A stretch of DNA of 26,849 nt from a bacterium (lineage in GTDB: Bacteria; Joyebacterota; Joyebacteria; Joyebacterales; Joyebacteraceae), in the NCBI GenBank assembly GCA_025774935.1, contig JALGZK010000025.1, positions 1 to 26,849 of the forward strand. Direction: 5' to 3'. Each line of letters starts with the position of its first letter. Position 1 is the first letter of the stretch. The translations under genes were made by a program, and so were the position numbers. Shown here one piece after another: positions 1 to 26,849 of the stretch. Under the pieces are notes generated by a model. The model was not told where the DNA came from and ran no database searches. It worked only from the letters and a program-made list of their open reading frames with translations.

Positions 1-1803
1 TACACGTCGTACCCGCCCGCGAGCGTGAATCCCATGGCAGCGAGGGTCGCGCATGACGGAACGGTGCTTGATCCCGCCGGAATCGACCTCGCGGCCGGCT
101 CCGGCTTCGGAGCGAACAGGGTCCCGAGGGTTGCTTGGGACGGAACGAACTGGGTCGCGGGATGGACCGACAACCTCGGCGCCAGGCTGGCCCGCGTGAC
201 GCCTGACGGCACGCTCCTCGATCCGGGCGGCGAGAGCCTCCCGTGGCTCGGCGTGGACGAGCTCGCCGAGTCCCCGGGTGGCGGAGTTCGGATGGTATGG
301 ACCAGCGAGTTGGCCGGCGGTGAGCTTCCCGATGATATCTACTCGACGTACGTCTCGCCGGGCCTCGAGGCTGATGAGGAGGCACCGATCTCGCTCGGCG
401 CGCCCTCGCACACGCACGTCGACATCGCCCTCGCAGGAGAGGACGGCATGCTCGTCTTCCGGAGCGACGTCTCGGGTGATCGACATGTTTTGGCGCAGGA
501 CGTCGCGGGCTACTTAGGAGCGGGGAGCGGTGAGCCGGTGCTCCTGGCGAGCGGGACCGGCGTCTCGGATCCCGCGGTCGCGTGGAACGGAAGCCTGTAC
601 CTCGCGGTCTGGAGCGACGATGACGCCGAGGCGATCTACGGGACGAGACTTCTCCAGGACGGGACGGTCCTCGACGATCCCGCGATCCTCGTCATGTCAG
701 GGCTCGAGCCGGACGTCTCGGCCGTCGGCACGGACTTCCTGGTCGTCGGAACCGACGAGGTCGGGAGCTTCGCGACGCGGAAGCCCTTCGGGGCGCGCGT
801 GCGCGGCTCGGACGGCGTCGTGCTGGACGCCCCCCCGATCCTCCTCGGGCAGTCGTATGCTCGCGGACCGGAGGTCGCGGGGATGAGCACTCGGTGGCTC
901 GTCACGTGGGGGAGGTACCCCTCGTACGACGATCCAGCCGCCACCGTTCAGGCGGCGTTCGTCGACGCCGACGGGAGCACGCCGGGCGAGTTCGGCATCG
1001 CGACAAGCTCCGCGTTCACGGACGAACACCTGAGCCCCGCGATCGGAGCGAACCTCGGCATCGCGCTGATCGTCTGGGAGGAGACCCGGCTCACGCACGG
1101 GGAGGACTGGAACCTCTACGGGCGGAGGGTGCTGGTCGACGGCACGGTCTTCGACGACCCCGGCGGCTTCCAGATCACGGAGCTTCCCGCCGACGAGCGT
1201 AACGCCGCGGTCGGGTGGAACGGCTCCACGTTCCAGCTCGCGTTCGAGGTCTCGGAGCAGCTCGGCTGGTTCGACCACAGCGCGACCGACGTCTACGGCA
1301 CGCGTGTCGACCAGTACGGTGAAGTCCTCTCGCCCTTGGGCTTCCCGATCGAAATCGGGGAGGGGCCGGACGTGATGCCGGCCGTCGGGAGCGGCGTCGA
1401 CCACGCGACCGTCGCGTCGTCCGTCTTCGTGAGCGAGGCCCCGTACGCGGCGTACCGTATCGGGGCTAGGGCGTTCGACGACGGGACGACGGGCGTTCCC
1501 GACACGCCGGACGATCCTGTGGTCTCCGCAATCCACCTGGCCGGGGCGTTCCCGAACCCGACTCCGGGCCCGACGCGGGTTCGGTTCATCCTGCCGGAGA
1601 CGACGCGCGTGTCGCTTCGGGTCTACGACGTCGCCGGACGGGTCGTGCGCGAGCTCGTCGACTCGGTGACACCCGCCGGTGAGCACGACGTCCGCTGGGA
1701 TGGCAGGGACAACTCCGGCGAGGCGGTGGCGAACGGCATGTACCTCTACCGGATGGAGGCAGGCGGTTACCAGGGCACAGGCAAGCTCGTGGTGCTGCGG
1801 TAG
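1..1803 (+). CDS. Secreted repeat protein with FlgD/T9SS-like C-terminal tail (5' end outside window)
   Basis: The reading frame is open from base 1, so the N-terminus and any signal peptide lie upstream; a GTG at 25 is only an internal codon. The protein is built of roughly 60-residue repeats of the form AWNGxxYLxxW...IYGxRxxxDGTVLDDP, of which at least six copies can be seen, suggesting a beta-propeller-like extracellular domain. The last 80 or so residues form a FlgD-Ig-like sorting domain: LPETTRVSLRVYDVAGRVVREL, then HDVRWDGRDNSGEAVANGMY, ending LVVLR. In related phyla such tails direct export and surface attachment. No enzymatic motif is visible. It is followed 80 nt later by another secreted protein with the same type of tail. 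The sorting domain is clear; the role is unknown. Confidence 0.8.
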   Translation, partial: YTSYPPASVNPMAARVAHDGTVLDPAGIDLAAGSGFGANRVPRVAWDGTNWVAGWTDNLGARLARVTPDGTLLDPGGESLPWLGVDELAESPGGGVRMVWTSELAGGELPDDIYSTYVSPGLEADEEAPISLGAPSHTHVDIALAGEDGMLVFRSDVSGDRHVLAQDVAGYLGAGSGEPVLLASGTGVSDPAVAWNGSLYLAVWSDDDAEAIYGTRLLQDGTVLDDPAILVMSGLEPDVSAVGTDFLVVGTDEVGSFATRKPFGARVRGSDGVVLDAPPILLGQSYARGPEVAGMSTRWLVTWGRYPSYDDPAATVQAAFVDADGSTPGEFGIATSSAFTDEHLSPAIGANLGIALIVWEETRLTHGEDWNLYGRRVLVDGTVFDDPGGFQITELPADERNAAVGWNGSTFQLAFEVSEQLGWFDHSATDVYGTRVDQYGEVLSPLGFPIEIGEGPDVMPAVGSGVDHATVASSVFVSEAPYAAYRIGARAFDDGTTGVPDTPDDPVVSAIHLAGAFPNPTPGPTRVRFILPETTRVSLRVYDVAGRVVRELVDSVTPAGEHDVRWDGRDNSGEAVANGMYLYRMEAGGYQGTGKLVVLR

Positions 1804-1883
1804 AGCACCACTTCTCCCCGCGGAACGCCGGACGCCTCAGAGCGACACAGTGCTCGTGCTAGTCGATGAAGGGGGATGTGACG

Positions 1884-3365
1884 ATGAAGAACGAAGAGCG
1901 CAGACGCGCACCGATTTGGGGACTCGGGTATGCGGCGCTTCTGCTCTTCGTGTGCGCAGGCCTGAGCCAGGCACAGGGCCTCTTCGACACGCCGGTGCAC
2001 TACGACGTGGGATCCCGACCCCGAGACGTGACGGCCGCGGACCTGGACCGTGACGGGAGCCAGGACCTGGTGGTAGCCAACTCCCTGTCCAGCACCGTTT
2101 CGGTCCTGCTGAACGGCGGGGACGGTACCTTTGGACCGGCGCTCTCCTATCCCGTTGGAGCCTCACCGTACGCGGCCGTGACCGCCAGGATGGACGCCGA
2201 CCTCTATCCGGACGTCATCGCCTCCGGCTACGACGCCGGCACGATCTCCGTGCTCCTCAACGACGGGGCCGGGGGATTGCTTCCGGCCGTTCACTATCCG
2301 GTGGGCGATTCGCCGATGGGCCTGGTCGCGGTCGACCTGTCCGGCGACGGGATCCCCGACGTGGCCGTGGTGAACCGGGAGTCGCGCACGTTCTCGGTGC
2401 TTGTCAACGACGGGACCGGCGCCCTCACGCTGTCCGCTGTCTATGCCGCGAGCGGGTTCTCCATCAAGCCTTCCTGGATCACCGCAGGGGACTTCGACGG
2501 TGACGAGGCAATCGACCTCGCGGTGGTCAAGAACTACCACAATCTCTACTTCACGGCCGCCTACGTTCAGGTGTTCCCGAACGACGGGACCGGGCACTTC
2601 CCTGTGAGCCGGACGTACGACCTGGGTGCCCCGGGGACTGCGACGACACCCATGGCTGCGGACTTCGACGGCGATGAGGACATCGATCTCATCGCGTCAG
2701 GCTTCGTCGTGAACTCGTATCGCGTCAGCGTTCTCCTGAACGACGGAACGGGGAACTTCGCGGATCCCCTCACGTACTCCGCCGGGGCAAGTGGGAGGGC
2801 CTGTTACGGCGACTTCGACTTCGACCAGGACCTCGACCTTGCCGTTTCGGAGCAGGGCGTCTCTTCGTACAGCTTCAGCGTGCTCGAGAACAACGGCGAC
2901 GCGACGTTCGAATCCCCATACACGGTCGCGGTCGGCCCGGATCCTATGGGAATCGTCTCCCGCGACTTCGACTCCGATGGCGACGGTGACCTCGCGGTCG
3001 CTGTCTTCGACGACGACTCGGTCGCGGTGGTGGGCTGCAACGCCGACCCGACGGCCGTCGGTGGCGGCGTGATCGGGGGGGTAGACGTGCTGCGGCTATA
3101 TCGCGCTCATCCCAACCCGTTCGCGTCGGAGACAGCGCTCGCGTTCGAGCTTTCCGAGCCGGCGAGGGTCGCCGTGAGGATCTACGATGTGTCCGGCAGG
3201 TTGGTGAGGACGCTGACCGAAGGTGAGTTCCGTGCGCCGGGACGGCATGAGCTCACGTGGGACGGACGCGACGGCAGAGGCCTCAACGTCGCGTCGGGAG
3301 TCTACCTGTGCCGTACAGAGGCCTCAGGGGCCGAGCGGACGCAGCGGATGGTGCTCATCCGATAG
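1884..3365 (+). CDS. Secreted FG-GAP/VCBS-repeat protein with FlgD-like C-terminal tail
   Basis: The frame also offers an ATG at 1866, but a purine-rich GAAGGGGG at about 1868-1875 sits 8 nt before the ATG at 1884, so 1884 is preferred (493 residues). The N-terminus MKNEERRRAPIW followed by GYAALLLFVCAGLSQAQG is a typical signal peptide with an AQ/G-type cleavage site. The body holds about seven repeats of some 48 residues. Each carries an acidic calcium-binding-like loop (DLDRDGSQDL, DLSGDGIPDV, DFDGDEAIDL, DFDGDEDIDL, DFDFDQDLDL, DFDSDGDGDL) and an SVLLNDGTGxF strand, as in FG-GAP/VCBS propellers of surface proteins. The final 75 residues are a FlgD-Ig-like domain (VAVRIYDVSGRLVRTL...WDGRDGRG) ending MVLIR. 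A cell-surface or secreted role is likely; the ligand is unknown. Confidence 0.85.
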   Translation: MKNEERRRAPIWGLGYAALLLFVCAGLSQAQGLFDTPVHYDVGSRPRDVTAADLDRDGSQDLVVANSLSSTVSVLLNGGDGTFGPALSYPVGASPYAAVTARMDADLYPDVIASGYDAGTISVLLNDGAGGLLPAVHYPVGDSPMGLVAVDLSGDGIPDVAVVNRESRTFSVLVNDGTGALTLSAVYAASGFSIKPSWITAGDFDGDEAIDLAVVKNYHNLYFTAAYVQVFPNDGTGHFPVSRTYDLGAPGTATTPMAADFDGDEDIDLIASGFVVNSYRVSVLLNDGTGNFADPLTYSAGASGRACYGDFDFDQDLDLAVSEQGVSSYSFSVLENNGDATFESPYTVAVGPDPMGIVSRDFDSDGDGDLAVAVFDDDSVAVVGCNADPTAVGGGVIGGVDVLRLYRAHPNPFASETALAFELSEPARVAVRIYDVSGRLVRTLTEGEFRAPGRHELTWDGRDGRGLNVASGVYLCRTEASGAERTQRMVLIR

Positions 3366-3465: not shown

Positions 3466-4077
3466 CTACCTGTACAGCCCCTTGATCGAACCCCACGTCG
3501 CGTGCTCGACTGGTGTCGACGGGCAGAAGTGGACGCCCGTCATGATGATCGAGTACGGTCCGGTGGCGAACCCGGACGTTCCCCACGATGCGACGGGGCC
3601 GGGCGCGCCGGGTCCGTCCGGCGCCCTCTCGAAGTTGAAGGGGGTGTTCTGCCAGATGAGGTTGCCGGCTGCGTCGTAGGGGTCCCAGTTGTACTGGCTG
3701 ACGGCCAGGAGGTAGTCGCCGGGCCCCGGAACGAAGGCCCCGGTGATCGAGGACTGGAGTCCGCACCCGCCTGGGTCGTCGTCGTCGTGCGTCACCCCGA
3801 GGCCCGTAGGATCGAAGAGCCAGAGCTGGGTGTCGGCGGTCGTCCCGCCGCACGTCGTCGCCACGAAGACCCCCGGGTTCGGGATGTGGATGCAGTACAT
3901 GTCAGCATCGCCACCCGAGAGCAACGTTCCGTTGATCTGATTGAACGTTCCGGTCCCCTGAGGCAGCTGGGCAGAAGCCGGCAGATCGCCCGCGTCGCCT
4001 ATCTCGTTCCACGTCTGTGCTGCTGCCGGTACGGCAGCGAGAACGAACGCGGCGCTCAGGATCAGTAGCAGTCTCAT
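3466..4077 (-). CDS. Secreted PPC-like protein ending in WGSIKGLYR
   Basis: This 203-residue protein starts at ATG 4077, preceded on the minus strand by AAAGGAG with about 9 nt spacing. Residues 1-21 (MRLLLILSAAFVLAAVPAAA) are a clear signal peptide with cleavage near AAAQ. The mature part resembles bacterial pre-peptidase C-terminal (PPC)/DVUA0089-type beta-sandwich domains: the stretch GGDADMYCIHIPNPGVFVATT, then DTQLWLFDPTGLGV, then PGDYLLAVSQYN. Four cysteines are present and no catalytic motif is seen. The last residues, PVEHATWGSIKGLYR, closely match the end of the remnant at 10162-10623 (PVERSSWGSIKGLYR), so the tail is a shared C-terminal element. The gene stands alone, with a near-consensus promoter at 4341-4369. 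Function unknown; secretion is well supported. Confidence 0.8.
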   Translation of the reverse strand: MRLLLILSAAFVLAAVPAAAQTWNEIGDAGDLPASAQLPQGTGTFNQINGTLLSGGDADMYCIHIPNPGVFVATTCGGTTADTQLWLFDPTGLGVTHDDDDPGGCGLQSSITGAFVPGPGDYLLAVSQYNWDPYDAAGNLIWQNTPFNFERAPDGPGAPGPVASWGTSGFATGPYSIIMTGVHFCPSTPVEHATWGSIKGLYR

Positions 4078-10161: not shown

Positions 10162-10623
10162 CCGTTCCCGGGTTGGGGGATCTCCGGCTCATACCCGCAC
10201 GACGCCAGCGAGGTCGCGATCATCGGACCGGCCGACATCACCGCCAGCTGCTACTGCCTCGAGCTCTGCCACTTCTACGTCATCGAAGAGTGGTGGGACG
10301 GCGCGTTCGTCTCGGTATCGACCGACGAGGGCTTGACCTGGCACCTCCTGACTCCCGCCGGCGGTTACGACCTCATCGGAGAGTGGGACAACTACTGCGT
10401 CGGTCCGTTGCCCAGCTACTCCGACGAGAACAGCTCCGCGTTCAGGGTCGACTGCTTCGACCTCTCGGAGTTCATCGGGAACGAGGTCAAAATCGGGTTC
10501 AACTTCGGCTCGGACAGCAGCGTCACGTACGCCGGCTGGAGCATCCTGTGGGCGGCCCTCAGCGGTCCCGAGTCCCCGGTCGAGCGGTCGAGCTGGGGTT
10601 CGATCAAGGGGCTCTACCGGTAG
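10162..10623 (+). pseudogene. 5'-truncated secreted beta-sandwich protein ending in WGSIKGLYR
   Basis: A frame of 153 codons is open from just after an in-frame TGA (10159-10161) to the TAG at 10621-10623. It has no ATG or GTG near its 5' end; the only in-frame candidate is a TTG at 10333, in the middle of a domain. The translation (FYVIEEWWDGAFVSVSTDEG, then TWHLLTPAGGYD, and later KIGFNFGSDSS...YAGWSILWAAL) resembles the jelly-roll domain found after the catalytic domain in immune-inhibitor-A/M6-type peptidases and similar secreted proteins (WDGG.V.ISTDGG.TW..LTP.GGY). It ends PVERSSWGSIKGLYR, matching the tail of the secreted protein at 3466-4077. No signal peptide or catalytic part remains, so it is probably a gene remnant. 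Confidence 0.6.
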
Positions 10624-21842: not shown

Positions 21843-24800
21843 CTACCTGAGGACGATCGCCGCCCTCGAGTCGACGGTCTCGCCGTACGCGAGCCTCACG
21901 AAGTAGACCCCCGCGGGCTGCCCCGTCGCGTCCCATCTCACGCTGTGCTCTCCGGCCCCGAAGCCGCGGTCGGCCAGGAGGGCGATCCTCCGCCCGGCGA
22001 CGTTGAAGACCTCGAGCCTCACGTCGGCCGGTTCAGGCAGCGCGAAGACCACGTCCGTGGCCACCCTGAACGGGTTCGGTCGGTTGAATCGGAGTCCGGA
22101 CTCCGAGATCCCGGAGGATCCCGGCTCGATCGGGTCTTCCTGATGTCCGCTCTCGCAGGACGTCGTCACGACGTTCGCTCCCGGATCGTACGGGTAGCCC
22201 GCGATCGCGATGTCCGTCACCGTGAAGCAGAAGTCGACCGGGGGCGTCTTCGTCCTGTCCCCGGTGATCCCGGCGACTCCGCCCGCTCCCGTTACCCCGG
22301 TCTTCGTGCCTGTGTTCGGCGCGTTGAAGAAGCCCGAGACCGTCGCGTTCGCTATCGGCGTGCCGTCCTGGTCGACGACGGTCACGTCGGCGGTCCCGCG
22401 GTACGACTTGCCAGTCCTCCTCCTCGAAACGGAGATGTCCGAGACGTGCACCGACTGCTGCGGGGCGTCGGTCACCGATACGTAGCCGACCTTCGTCTCG
22501 GTGTCGGACCCGTACGCGTTCGCGGCGACGAGGCTCACGGTGTACGTTCCCGCGTCGGCGTAGGAGTACGATGGGCTCTGCGCGGTCGAGGTGCCGACTC
22601 CGTCGCCGAAGTCCCAGCTCCACGAGGTCGGAACGCCGGTCGACTGATCGGCGAAGCTCACGGAGAGCGGCGCGTAGCCGGACGTCGGCGACCCGACGAA
22701 GTCTGCCACCGGCGGTTCCGGAATCCCGCCCTCCGTCTCGAAGTACATCTCGTCGATGTGGACGGCGTCGAGCGAGGTCTTCCTCCACGAGCGGTTCGTG
22801 TCGACGACGCGCACGCGGACGATGCCGCTCGTGCTCGCCGGGATCGACGCCGAGTAGCCCTGCTCCGTCGCGCTCGCGACGGTGAAGAGCGGGAGGTACG
22901 TCACACCGTCCGTCGAGTACTCGAAGCTGAAGTTGTCGCCGTCGGAGTTGCTCTCGCGATACGCCTCCGCGTGGAACGTGACCGACGACCCGCTCGACAC
23001 GCTGAAGTCCCACCCGTGCTGGTAGAGGACCTCGGTGATCGCCTCGCGGACGTCGTCGCTCGAGTGCGTGTCCGTGAAGCTCCCCGCGACCGTTCCGTCG
23101 CCAGGGACGTCGTTCAGGGCGTAGGCCCTGGAGGCGGCGGCGACCGTGATGTAGTCGACCTTCGTCTCGGTGTCCGTGTCGTACGCGTTCGTCACCGTGA
23201 GCGAGACCGTGTAGGTCCCGGCCGCAGTGTAGGTGTACGACGGGTCCTGGGCCGTCGAGGTCCCGACTCCGTCGCCGAAGTCCCAGCTCCACGAGGTCGG
23301 GTCGTTCGTCGAGAGGTCCGTGAAATCGACGCTCAGAGGCGGCGCGCCCGACGTCGGGTCTGCCGTGAACTCGGCGGTAGGCGGGTAGTAGGGTTCTGCG
23401 GCAGTCACGTAGTCGACCTTGGTCTCTCCGTCGGAGCCGAAGGCGTTCGTGGCCGTGAGCGTGACCGTGTAGGTCCCCGCGGTCGTGTACGTGTAAGAGG
23501 GGTTCTGAGCCGTCGAGGTGCCGATGCCGTCCCCGAAGTCCCAGCTCCACGAGGTGGGGCCGCCGGTCGAGAGGTCGGTGAAGTCCACCAGAAGAGGCAC
23601 GTCGCCCGAGGTAGGGCTGCCTGAGAACTCGGCGGTCGGCGGAATATCGCTGTCCCCGACGGCCGCGTCGGCGTCGACCATCCCGTAGCCCGCGTAGCGG
23701 TCCCAGCCGGCGCCGGACTCGACGCTCACGACGTCCTGCGCCGACTCGACGAGCCTGGTGCGGACCTCGGCAGGGGTCAGGGTCGGGTCCGCCGAGAGGA
23801 TGAGCGCGCAGACGCCGGCGGCGTAGGGTGTTGCGCACGACGTCCCGTTGAACCACATGGAGTAGTCGCCCGACGCGTAGCCGCCGCTCCCGCCGATGTC
23901 GGTCGTCGGCATGATCGTCGGCGCTATCACGTCGACCGCGCCGCCGGCGTCCTGCGTCGTCGATCCGTAGTTCGAGCCCCACCAGCGCTCGCCGTCGCAC
24001 GTGAAGCCGTTCGGGTCGGTGTAGACCCCGGGGTTGCACTCGGCGGAGTTGCTGCTGCTCCGCTTGCGCTCGCCGCACGGAGATGCTGCGCCGACCCCGA
24101 TCACGTACGCGTTGATCGCCGGGTAGTGGATCACGTTGTCGTTGTCGTTCCCGGTCGCCGCGAGCATCGTGACGCCGGCGTTGTGAGCGTAGAGGATCGC
24201 GCTGTCGGTCGCCGGGTCGCTCGAGATTCGGGCGCCGATGCTCATGCTAACGATGTCCGCGCCGTTGTCCGCCGCGTGGTAGAGCGCGTTCTGGAGCGAG
24301 GAGAAGTACATCGTGCCCGCGCTGTTGGCGATCTTGAGCGGCATGACGCTCGCGCCGCCCGCGATCCCGGAGACGCCGAGGCCGTTCCCTGCGACCGCCG
24401 CGGCCACTCCCGCGCACGCGGTGCCGTGGCCGGGGCTCGCGCTGTTGTCGTCCGGGTTGCCGTCGTTGTCGCCGTAGTCGTATCCCGCAACGAGCCTGAG
24501 GTCCGGGTGGTCGACGTCGACTCCGCTGTCGGTGACGGCGATGATCACGCTCGCCGCGCCGTAGCCCTGGCCCTTGTCCCACGCGGCCTCCGCATTCGAG
24601 TCGAACCCGACCGTTCCCACGGGGCTGCCGTTCCAGTGGCTGTGCGTCGACCAGTCGTACGAGAGCATCTGGGCCGTGTTGTTGTGGCCCCACTGGTCCG
24701 GATACATCGGATCGTTCGGGACGGCGGCGGGGAATAGACGCCAGTCGGGCGTCGCGTGCTCCACGCTCGGGTCCGCGGCCAGGCGCGCCGCGGCCTCCAC

Positions 24801-25196
24801 GACGTTCCCTTCCACGTGGAAGACGAACCACCGGTCGACGCCGAGTTCGGCGGCAACGCGCTCGTTCGCGGGAGCATCGTACGGGCGCTCGATTCCGGTG
24901 AGCCCGATCTCGAGTGCGGCCGAGTCGAGAGAGGGGAGGCCCGTGGCCGCACGGGCCGCCGCGCCTCTTCTCATCTCGATGTCGAACGACGAGCCTTCGA
25001 GAGCCGCCACGGTGAGCTTCACCATGACCCTGCCGGGAGCGAACCGTGGCACGGCAGTGGTGGTCTGGGTGAACCCGTCCTGCACCGGAGCGAACGCCCG
25101 GAGGTCGGAACCCCGGACCGTCGCAGCCGCGGCGAGGACGATGAAGAACGTCACGAGCAAGCATGAATGTACAGAGCGTCGTCCGGTCGCGCGCAT
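21843..25196 (-). CDS. Secreted subtilisin-like (S8) protease with three PKD domains and FlgD-like tail
   Basis: Of two adjacent starts, the ATG at 25196 is favoured over the GTG at 25199 because GGAGG lies 7 nt before it (1117 residues). A signal peptide spans about 1-29 (HSCLLVTFFIVLAAAATVRG). A propeptide region leads to an S8 domain (about 160-510) with a complete triad D223 (VTDSGVD), H257 (GHGTACAG) and S453 (GTSCATP), and oxyanion N350 (AATGND). Then come PKD1 and PKD2 (about 519-686), a jelly-roll-like region (about 690-825), PKD3 (about 828-910), an Ig-like domain (VTVVDQDGTPIANATVSG) and a FlgD-like sorting domain (VRLEVFNVAGRRIALL, GVYFVRLAYG, ending IVLR). PKD domains usually bind polymers or other proteins. 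A near-consensus promoter lies 147 nt upstream. An extracellular protease role is well supported. Confidence 0.93.
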   Translation of the reverse strand: MRATGRRSVHSCLLVTFFIVLAAAATVRGSDLRAFAPVQDGFTQTTTAVPRFAPGRVMVKLTVAALEGSSFDIEMRRGAAARAATGLPSLDSAALEIGLTGIERPYDAPANERVAAELGVDRWFVFHVEGNVVEAAARLAADPSVEHATPDWRLFPAAVPNDPMYPDQWGHNNTAQMLSYDWSTHSHWNGSPVGTVGFDSNAEAAWDKGQGYGAASVIIAVTDSGVDVDHPDLRLVAGYDYGDNDGNPDDNSASPGHGTACAGVAAAVAGNGLGVSGIAGGASVMPLKIANSAGTMYFSSLQNALYHAADNGADIVSMSIGARISSDPATDSAILYAHNAGVTMLAATGNDNDNVIHYPAINAYVIGVGAASPCGERKRSSSNSAECNPGVYTDPNGFTCDGERWWGSNYGSTTQDAGGAVDVIAPTIMPTTDIGGSGGYASGDYSMWFNGTSCATPYAAGVCALILSADPTLTPAEVRTRLVESAQDVVSVESGAGWDRYAGYGMVDADAAVGDSDIPPTAEFSGSPTSGDVPLLVDFTDLSTGGPTSWSWDFGDGIGTSTAQNPSYTYTTAGTYTVTLTATNAFGSDGETKVDYVTAAEPYYPPTAEFTADPTSGAPPLSVDFTDLSTNDPTSWSWDFGDGVGTSTAQDPSYTYTAAGTYTVSLTVTNAYDTDTETKVDYITVAAASRAYALNDVPGDGTVAGSFTDTHSSDDVREAITEVLYQHGWDFSVSSGSSVTFHAEAYRESNSDGDNFSFEYSTDGVTYLPLFTVASATEQGYSASIPASTSGIVRVRVVDTNRSWRKTSLDAVHIDEMYFETEGGIPEPPVADFVGSPTSGYAPLSVSFADQSTGVPTSWSWDFGDGVGTSTAQSPSYSYADAGTYTVSLVAANAYGSDTETKVGYVSVTDAPQQSVHVSDISVSRRRTGKSYRGTADVTVVDQDGTPIANATVSGFFNAPNTGTKTGVTGAGGVAGITGDRTKTPPVDFCFTVTDIAIAGYPYDPGANVVTTSCESGHQEDPIEPGSSGISESGLRFNRPNPFRVATDVVFALPEPADVRLEVFNVAGRRIALLADRGFGAGEHSVRWDATGQPAGVYFVRLAYGETVDSRAAIVLR
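22467..22715 (-). repeat. PKD repeat unit 3 of the subtilisin gene
   Basis: Encodes PPVADFVGSPTSGYAPLS, then SWSWDFGDGVGTSTAQ and AGTYTVSL. Its central stretch at about 22584-22631 is nearly identical in DNA to the other two PKD units. Confidence 0.8.
23139..23384 (-). repeat. PKD repeat unit 2 of the subtilisin gene
   Basis: Encodes PPTAEFTADPTSGAPPLSVDF, SWSWDFGDGVGTSTAQDPSY and GTYTVSLTVTNAY. The stretch 23253-23300 matches units 1 and 3 almost exactly in DNA. Confidence 0.8.
23397..23642 (-). repeat. PKD repeat unit 1 of the subtilisin gene
   Basis: Encodes PPTAEFSGSPTSGDVPLL, SWSWDFGDGIGTSTAQNPSY and GTYTVTLTATNAF. The stretch 23512-23557 matches units 2 and 3 with few differences. Confidence 0.8.
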
Positions 25197-25342
25197 CACA
25201 ACGCCTCCTCAGGTGCCGGCTGCCCGGGGGCCGGTGTGCCGGGTGGTGTGTCCTTCGCTGTTCAATGGAAGCAGACGGCAGGACGCCCCATGAGGGGGGG
25301 CGCTGCTCTGCCGCCGCTGTCGCGCCTCTTCCACGTTCTTCG

Positions 25343-25461: not shown

Positions 25462-26157
25462 TCAGAAGCGCTTCCGGACGACGACCGCAAGTCCCATAAG
25501 TCCGCTCCCGAGAAGCAACAGCGTCGACGGCTCGGGTACGGGTGACGGCGGAGTCGGGAGGAGGGTCGGGACGAGCACGTGCTTCTCGAGCGATCCGCTC
25601 GAGGCCCCATCGCACGGGTCCCAGTCGTCCGGCGTGAACCCGGCGTTCCAGACGGTGTTCACGCTCAGTCCCTTGCTGCTCCCGTTCATCGCGTAGAAGT
25701 CGCCCCAGCAGGGCGCGTACTCGGTGGTGAACTCGACCGTGGCGACCTCGTCCGGCATACTCTCGACCTCGATCCCGTAGCCTTCGGTCGGCATCTCCCT
25801 GGCTGAGAACCGGAGGTGGTGTGTCCCGACCTCGAAGGTGCGGAAGTTGCCTTCGGCGTTCGAGATGTCGGCCGCGGTGATCTCAGTCGGCAACTCGAGA
25901 ACGAGGCGCGCGGCGCCTCCCGTCGAGCTGCTGAAGCTGTACGAGTAGTTCCAGAGACCGTCCGCGTTCTGACTCACCGTCCACTCGATCATCGTCGGTC
26001 CAGACGTGACCCACTCGCCCGTTCCGATCACGCCGAAGTCGGTCGTGAGGAGACTCCCCGTGTAGGCGGAGCACGCGAGTGGAAGTGACGCAAGAGCGAA
26101 GAGGACGGAAGCTGCCGCGAGGAGCGCAGTCGGACGTCGGCGAAGAGGTGTCTTCAT
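25462..26157 (-). CDS. PEP-CTERM-sorted secreted protein, copy 1
   Basis: This 231-residue protein has a signal peptide at about 1-31 (MKTPLRRRPTALLAAASVLFA, then SLPLACSA). The middle is a beta-rich domain without recognised catalytic motifs (MIEWTVSQNADGLWNYSYSFS, RLVLELPTEITAADI, VEFTTEYAPCWGDFYAMNG, NTVWNAGFTPDDWDP). The C-terminus is a canonical PEP-CTERM signal: VPEPST, a hydrophobic helix (LLLLGSGLMGLAVVV) and RKRF. Such tails are cut and transferred by an exosortase, which is not in this window. The next gene on the same strand is a paralogue with the same WGDFYA(M/K)NG and VWNAGFTP-type blocks. A promoter close to consensus lies 62 nt upstream. Ligand and role unknown. Confidence 0.88.
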   Translation of the reverse strand: MKTPLRRRPTALLAAASVLFALASLPLACSAYTGSLLTTDFGVIGTGEWVTSGPTMIEWTVSQNADGLWNYSYSFSSSTGGAARLVLELPTEITAADISNAEGNFRTFEVGTHHLRFSAREMPTEGYGIEVESMPDEVATVEFTTEYAPCWGDFYAMNGSSKGLSVNTVWNAGFTPDDWDPCDGASSGSLEKHVLVPTLLPTPPSPVPEPSTLLLLGSGLMGLAVVVRKRF

Positions 26158-26328: not shown

Positions 26329-26849
26329 CTACCTGCGCTTGCGCACCACGAGCGCAGTGCCGAGGAGCCCGCTCCCGAGGAGCAGCATCGTGGAGGGCTC
26401 CGGGATCGGCGGCGGCGGGTTATCCGTGTCGGGCACGAGGATGTGGAAGTCGAGCGAGCCGTTCATCGGCGGGGCGTCCGGGTCCGTGTCGTTCGGTGTG
26501 AAGCCCGCGTTCCACGCGACGTTCGTACCCAGTCCGCCTGCGTCCCCGTTCTTCGCGTAGAAGTCGCCCCACATCGGCCCGCGGTCGATGTCCCACTCCA
26601 CGTGAGTGACGGTGCCGGACGTCTCGTCGAGCTTGATGCCGAAGATATCGTCCGGCATCAGAGGATTGCCCGGTCCAGCTGAGTGGTTCCCCACGTCGAT
26701 CGGCCCGACGTCTCCACTCACGTTCATGAAGTCAGCGGCCGTGAGTCCCTTCGACGTCTCGAGGATCCAGTGACTCGTGGCCCCGACGGGGTGGCCGAAG
26801 TTGTAGTCGTAGTGCCACGTGTTGTCCGGATTCTGCGTGACCGTCCACT
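26329..26849 (-). CDS. PEP-CTERM-sorted secreted protein, copy 2 (5' end outside window)
   Basis: The minus-strand frame is open to the window edge. The ATG at 26727 is internal, because the residues before it (WTVTQNPDNTWHYDYNF, then SHWILETSKGLTAADF) align with copy 1 at 25462-26157 (WTVSQNADGLWNYSYSF, RLVLELPTEITAADI). The shared blocks continue as PMWGDFYAKNGD and AWNAGFTPND, and the protein ends in a PEP-CTERM signal: IPEPST, MLLLGSGLLGTALVV, RKRR. The N-terminus and signal peptide are not in the window. It would be anchored by an exosortase system like copy 1. Function unknown. Confidence 0.85.
   Translation of the reverse strand, partial: WTVTQNPDNTWHYDYNFGHPVGATSHWILETSKGLTAADFMNVSGDVGPIDVGNHSAGPGNPLMPDDIFGIKLDETSGTVTHVEWDIDRGPMWGDFYAKNGDAGGLGTNVAWNAGFTPNDTDPDAPPMNGSLDFHILVPDTDNPPPPIPEPSTMLLLGSGLLGTALVVRKRR

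Follow-up and report, generated by a model that had tools for sequence, protein, structure and literature searches.

A short C-terminal WGxIKxLYR tail on Sec-exported proteins of Joyebacterota is very probably a sorting signal

The known C-terminal signals of the type IX secretion system (T9SS) are β-structured domains, about 40 residues long or longer. The type A domain is an Ig-like β-sandwich of 70-90 residues with motifs A-E (PMC10202324, PMC11285876). Shorter C-terminal domains (CTDs) of 43-55 residues, with three β-strands and motifs B, D and E, are carried by many cargoes of Prevotella intermedia and are thought to retain only what the PorV shuttle requires (PMC11969387), while type B CTDs need about 100-200 residues and have dedicated PorP/SprF-like shuttles (PMC12618676, PMC9143113). 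The tails of the PEP-CTERM/exosortase, MYXO-CTERM/myxosortase and GlyGly-CTERM/rhombosortase systems are tripartite, with a motif, a membrane helix and a basic end (PMC1569441, PMC11980579, PMC3237569). The tail described here, WGxIKxLYR-COOH (the WG tail), resembles the type A domain (TIGR04183/PF18962, PF13860-like) in standing at the exact C-terminus of unrelated Sec-exported bodies, behind a flexible linker and with a basic last residue; the two occur in the same genomes, in adjacent genes, and interchangeably on the same body. In contrast to the type A domain, the WG tail has about 15 residues, is predicted to be helical and was matched by none of the listed models. Like the short CTDs of P. 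intermedia it would be a reduced signal on many cargoes, but it lacks β-strands and motifs B, D and E. With the tripartite tails it shares the many-to-one logic of a tag that recurs genome-wide on unrelated secreted bodies, with choice-of-anchor families in common; unlike them, it lacks a membrane helix and can do without an exosortase. Type B systems provide the precedent of dedicated shuttles for different T9SS signals, which fits the many PorV paralogues found here, although in our genomes no shuttle gene adjoins the tag genes, one case excepted.

The window, a stretch of 26,849 nucleotides from a Joyebacterota genome (contig JALGZK010000025.1), contains two genes that end in the WG tail. 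The first-pass annotation had claimed tails of identical type at both C-termini, and ORF translation and DNA-pattern matching found them there. The first gene (3466-4077, minus strand) encodes a tagged secreted protein of 203 aa that begins MRLLLILSAAFVLAAVPAAAQ and consists of a signal peptide, a PPC-like/DVUA0089-family body and the tail PVEHATWGSIKGLYR (3469-3513, minus strand), followed by the stop codon at 3466-3468. The signal peptide, MRLLLILSAAFVLAAVPAAA (4018-4077, minus strand), was identified with our own signal-peptide heuristic and by reading the sequence, which places the predicted cleavage after A20. The NCBIfam model NF038127 matched this protein with 30.3 bits (cut-off 29), the PPC match was weak (E 0.04) and the AlphaFold model was unusable (mean pLDDT 36). 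The orthologue in G002 is 84% identical and has the same tail. In a sister genome the orthologue is broken by a stop codon before the tail (L158, G001:C113) and is probably a pseudogene or an assembly error. The second tagged ORF (10162-10623, plus strand) ends in PVERSSWGSIKGLYR (10576-10620, plus strand) and has a body that we read from the sequence as that of a jelly-roll/choice-of-anchor J-like secreted protein. No start codon or signal peptide was present upstream, and because the frame opens at a stop codon, a few bases past the upstream gene, and lacks a signal peptide, we regard this ORF as a 5′-truncated remnant. The window also encodes a T9SS type A cargo with a FlgD-Ig-like/TIGR04183 tail (25-1803, plus strand; TIGR04183 29 bits, cut-off 23; PF13860 E 2.8e-12), and two proteins whose tail sequences are type A-like, one adjoining the tagged gene (1866-3365, plus strand) and one subtilisin-like/PKD protein (21843-25199, minus strand), its enzyme class being our reading of the sequence.

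The genome from which the window comes (G000, 3.24 Mb) was searched at the DNA level for WGxIKx(L)YR with the pattern TGGGGNNNNATHAARNNNYTNTAYMGN, in which the stop codon was not required, and with the reversed pattern as control. Results showed 40 exact matches and none with the reversed control, so the WG tail is not a chance occurrence. Per-gene statistics were obtained on 30 stretches, the window and 29 more around matches, which together cover 382 kb of this genome. A relaxed protein pattern gave 50 matches in these stretches, 49 of which end exactly at the stop codon; occurrence inside proteins, set beforehand as the finding that would speak against a tag, was thus hardly ever seen. The consensus was [ST]PVExx[ST]WGxIKxLYR-COOH, with a short linker that is usually [ST]PVExx; SPVEDATWGSIK is one of the tail peptides. 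A logo of 199 non-redundant tails read [ST]-P-V-E-x-x-[ST]-W-G-x-I-K-[ASG]-L-Y-R, and conservation was limited to the last 15-16 residues, with little upstream of position -16. When single positions were relaxed in the own-genome stretches, W and K were retained in 39/39 cases, R in 39/40, and G and I in 39/41, figures that are biased towards invariance because the stretches had been picked with the full pattern. Some tails deviate, with extra residues past YR (L014, at L014:6596-8233, L161 and L170), a final K or H in place of R (L200 and L201) or an eroded sequence (ELGAIEALYRW at L160); these are either variants that occur naturally or copies in decay. No Pfam or NCBIfam model for the WG tail emerged from a scan of 116 tagged proteins, since a dedicated model would match most of them and the widest family matched had ten members. 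A tail of 31 residues matched no sequence in the PDB, and we found no publication describing the tag in the literature on sorting signals and T9SS; literature matches to the letters of the motif concerned SOD1 and other unrelated subjects only.

All 20 genomes examined from the phylum of the window were tagged, with 3-40 matches each and no control matches. They span eight genera of one family, Joyebacterota being a phylum of one family (PMC13271369). Outside the phylum, 2 of 41 genomes had a single match each. The single match in G052, in an open frame of 20 residues that runs one residue past the motif, was rejected as chance. A scan of named genomes in which the stop codon was required gave, among the matches listed, MAGs of Eisenbacteria, Krumholzibacteriota, Latescibacterota, Gemmatimonadota (DHS20C21), Aegiribacteria and Coatesbacteria and others, as well as M3-44_Bin_119, which belongs to Orphanbacterota (PMC9727166). 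In whole-genome counts without the stop requirement many named genomes were multi-copy (10, 13, 9 and 12 matches, for example) and controls were zero. Judged by these pattern matches, the tag is found in the phylum of the window and in other FCB lineages.

A signal peptide was predicted, with a lax home-made test, in 45 of 50 tagged ORFs of the own genome compared to 81 of 236 other genes, and with the same kind of test in 75 of the 82 complete tagged ORFs from named-genome loci. Pfam and NCBIfam scans placed the tails on many unrelated bodies: β-helix, NHL propeller, InhA-MAM/cleaved adhesin, lamin tail, CBM20, plastocyanin-like and thioester domains, choice-of-anchor J and V, ScyF-like proteins, and others; cohesin-fold proteins, recognised from a structural model, are tagged as well. 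Several of these families, the choice-of-anchor ones among them, bear PEP-CTERM, MYXO-CTERM or rhombosortase tails elsewhere. The contrast first drawn between the PPC-like and jelly-roll bodies of the window therefore extends over many families, and the motif is not restricted to one of them. Tagged proteins were smaller than type A proteins (median 218.5 versus 558.5 aa). The proposal of a C-terminal tag on Sec-exported proteins is borne out by the exact C-terminal position, the signal peptides and the unrelated bodies, and WGxIKxLYR-COOH is, from its sequence pattern, very probably a sorting signal.

To place this signal, we compared tagged genomes with the distribution of T9SS components. 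A SprA match was present in 19 of the 20 phylum genomes and in 27 of 28 named tag genomes (at least three of which duplicate phylum genomes); among tag-free genomes the count was 12/39 at the same threshold and 6/39 above the curated cut-off. Tags without a SprA match occurred in G012 (three tags; genome 57% complete) and G073 (one tag). PorU was matched in all 20 phylum genomes, above cut-off in 15. SprA is not sufficient for the tag, since SprA-positive, tag-free genomes exist and 39 genomes from the phylum of the SprA-bearing G026 have no tag, and the association of tag and SprA is confounded by common ancestry in the FCB group. It is conceivable, though we consider it unlikely, that the tail serves as the sorting signal of another outer-membrane pathway in FCB phyla, for export or anchoring, which is unrelated to T9SS and co-occurs with it by ancestry only: SprA is widespread in FCB, so that co-occurrence is expected from ancestry, T9SS bacteria can be tagless, and motifs of types A, B and C are absent from the WG tail. 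A separate pathway leaves unexplained, however, three observations on the genes themselves, namely tail exchange on the same body, the adjacency of type A genes and the linkage to a PorU-type peptidase. Regarding exchange, sequence comparison indicates that, after a common junction, one body domain can be followed by either a WG tail or a T9SS type A domain. Adjacent paralogues at L067 are homologous up to this junction, where one ends SATEPTTWGGIKQLYR and the other continues with AGVEDD... and a complete type A domain; L032 and L063/L082 also have related pairs. The WG tag and the type A domain never occurred in one protein. Regarding adjacency, type A cargo was encoded by 15 of the 107 genes no more than two genes away from a tag gene, versus 4 of 154 further off (Fisher p 0.001), and in tag regions of other phyla the counts were 3/29 adjacent versus 0/119 further. 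Among 99 neighbour proteins scanned against Pfam and NCBIfam, type A cargo was the sole strongly recurrent family group.

PorV-family proteins were matched in all 20 phylum genomes, 9-19 times each; these shuttle proteins are unusually expanded in G000 and its 19 relatives. Comparison of the positions of PorV paralogues and tag genes showed no adjacency except for one close pair (G011:C177), and for this reason we claim no PorV linkage.

The first-pass annotation had suggested looking for a co-occurring peptidase or translocase gene, and besides the T9SS the search yielded a second PorU-type sortase. In the own genome PorU adjoins PorV (G000:C22:320-325 kb). A further C25 peptidase resembling PorU, the second PorU, is encoded at C15:2.7-6.5 kb in the same orientation as four tagged genes, a dockerin-like gene and an UshA-like selenoprotein gene. 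All 11 genomes whose contigs are long enough to be informative, from five genera, have it next to the tandem tag cluster. The protein has a C25 domain and a C25 propeptide (PF01364 E 6e-60; PF08126), scores below the cut-offs of NF033707 (258 bits, cut-off 420) and of NF052324 'PorU2' (105 bits, cut-off 450), and retains the catalytic His/Cys (GHG ... SC) in 9/9 copies. In addition, 4 of the 6 listed non-PorU C25 matches of the own genome lie less than 2 kb from a tag gene, and further C25 proteins, which themselves have type A tails, adjoin tag genes; no linkage to C25 genes was observed in the regions around tags that were fetched from other phyla. Gene linkage makes the second PorU a candidate enzyme for the WG tail.

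The cluster beside this peptidase contains small cohesin-fold WG-tailed proteins in tandem (L183:8253-12462, G000:C15), with equivalents at L186, L187, L188, L192, L197, L201 and L202. The model of a cluster protein had a mean pLDDT of 84, its top Foldseek matches were cohesins throughout, and it aligned with 2vo8 at Z 12.4 and an rmsd of 2.5 over 125 residues. A neighbour of the cluster carries two dockerin-like repeats, matched by PF00404 below cut-off in two of eight copies (E 0.007-0.014). On the basis of the model, a cohesin-dockerin pairing would agree with a role of the tag at the surface, although a shared fold is no proof of binding, and this uncultured, Gram-negative phylum may possess a surface system of cohesins and dockerins. 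The UshA-like selenoprotein gene (NF041198) within the tag cluster (L183:6613-7692, upstream to about 7890, minus strand) has a conserved in-frame TGA after EPCG (EPCGU), beyond which about 400 codons remain open in ten genomes; it was also found at L186, L187, L188, L191, L192, L194, L198, L200 and L202.

Taken together, tail exchange, type A adjacency, the nesting of the tag among SprA genomes and the linkage to the second PorU lead us to favour, at somewhat better than even chances, a minimal helical C-terminal sorting signal linked to T9SS, whose recognition and cleavage we infer. Sec would export the tagged protein first, and the tail would then fold as a short amphipathic helix with W, I, L and Y on one face and K and R beside them. 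A T9SS-linked outer-membrane receptor, most likely a PorV-family shuttle (one of approximately 15 paralogues) acting at the SprA translocon, would read this helix and carry the small cargo to the cell surface. There a PorU-type C25 cysteine peptidase, for which the second PorU from the neighbourhood of the tandem tag cluster is the candidate, may release the protein or cut it in the PVE linker and attach it. Tagged proteins share with T9SS cargo a Sec signal peptide, a C-terminal signal on unrelated bodies and a T9SS in the genome. This T9SS-linked reading is weakened by the tail itself, a predicted 15-residue helix compared with β-structured known signals: with its conservation confined to the last 15-16 residues, it does not show the folded β-structured CTD, some 40 residues or more in length, of those signals, and none of the described CTD families (TIGR04183, TIGR04131, PF18962, type C) was among those listed for the 116 tagged proteins. 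The WG tail thus falls outside the known T9SS CTDs by sequence and fold, but may work like one.

The helix can also be read as a docking peptide. In the model of a tagged cohesin-fold protein, residues 191-203 form a helix apart from the folded domain, with low confidence (about 50), which suits the T9SS-linked reading as well, and the helical moment at 100 degrees was 0.56 for the tails versus 0.40 for shuffled sequences. If export took another route, such an amphipathic tail might bind a surface receptor or insert into the membrane, in the manner of a very small dockerin or SLH domain, and the tailed cohesin-fold proteins of the cluster with their dockerin-like partner would suit an anchor. 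Membrane insertion, however, is at odds with the invariant W and K, the nearly invariant R and the exact C-terminus, which suggest a specific binding pocket instead, and docking overlaps with the T9SS reading, since many T9SS cargoes also become anchored. We consider a docking peptide improbable.

A variant PEP-CTERM/exosortase-type tail was also weighed, since the own genome has a single exosortase (G000:C32:17807-18562) and PEP-CTERM proteins, two of them at the window end (25462-26157 and 26329-26727, both on the minus strand). PEP-CTERM, type A and WG tails coexist in this genome as three C-terminal sorting signals. Membrane helix, hydrophobic stretch and basic cluster are all absent from the WG tail, which thus does not have the combination of motif, transmembrane helix and basic cluster that marks PEP-CTERM tails; with the absence of any type A model match, this upholds the view that the tag is unlike both PEP-CTERM and FlgD-like T9SS tails. 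Moreover, no exosortase was detected in G011 (98% complete) or G014 (90%), which keep 11-13 tags, mostly C-terminal, on signal-peptide proteins. On account of these two fairly complete genomes, which keep the tag without a detected cognate exosortase, we reject exosortase as the partner of the tag, and a PEP-CTERM variant is extremely unlikely. Equally hard to credit is shared descent, in which recombination, or the duplication of one family, would have spread the 3′ ends of genes without any signal function: one cohesin-fold family does account for 50 of 228 tagged sequences, but the other 178 have other bodies, the tail is invariant across phyla where bodies and flanks are not, and tail codons differ (36 distinct 27-mers in 38 WGxIKxLYR tails, using all four Gly and six Arg codons), which points to selection on the peptide.

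A bolder extension of the T9SS-linked reading, which we put forward tentatively and hold to be rather doubtful, is a distinct T9SS branch in non-Bacteroidota FCB phyla. In such a branch a helical peptide of 9-15 residues would replace the folded domain and would have its own PorV-type shuttle and PorU-type sortase, displaying, among others, cohesin-fold proteins that hold dockerin-bearing partners. Looking at the last nine residues provides a one-line test by which exported proteins of a new class, probably located at the surface, can be predicted in several uncultured phyla; many of these proteins match no family at present. If T9SS reads the WG tail, a folded CTD would not be required for T9SS export, which would bear on what the PorV/SprA translocon recognises in a CTD and would offer a far smaller tag for surface display.
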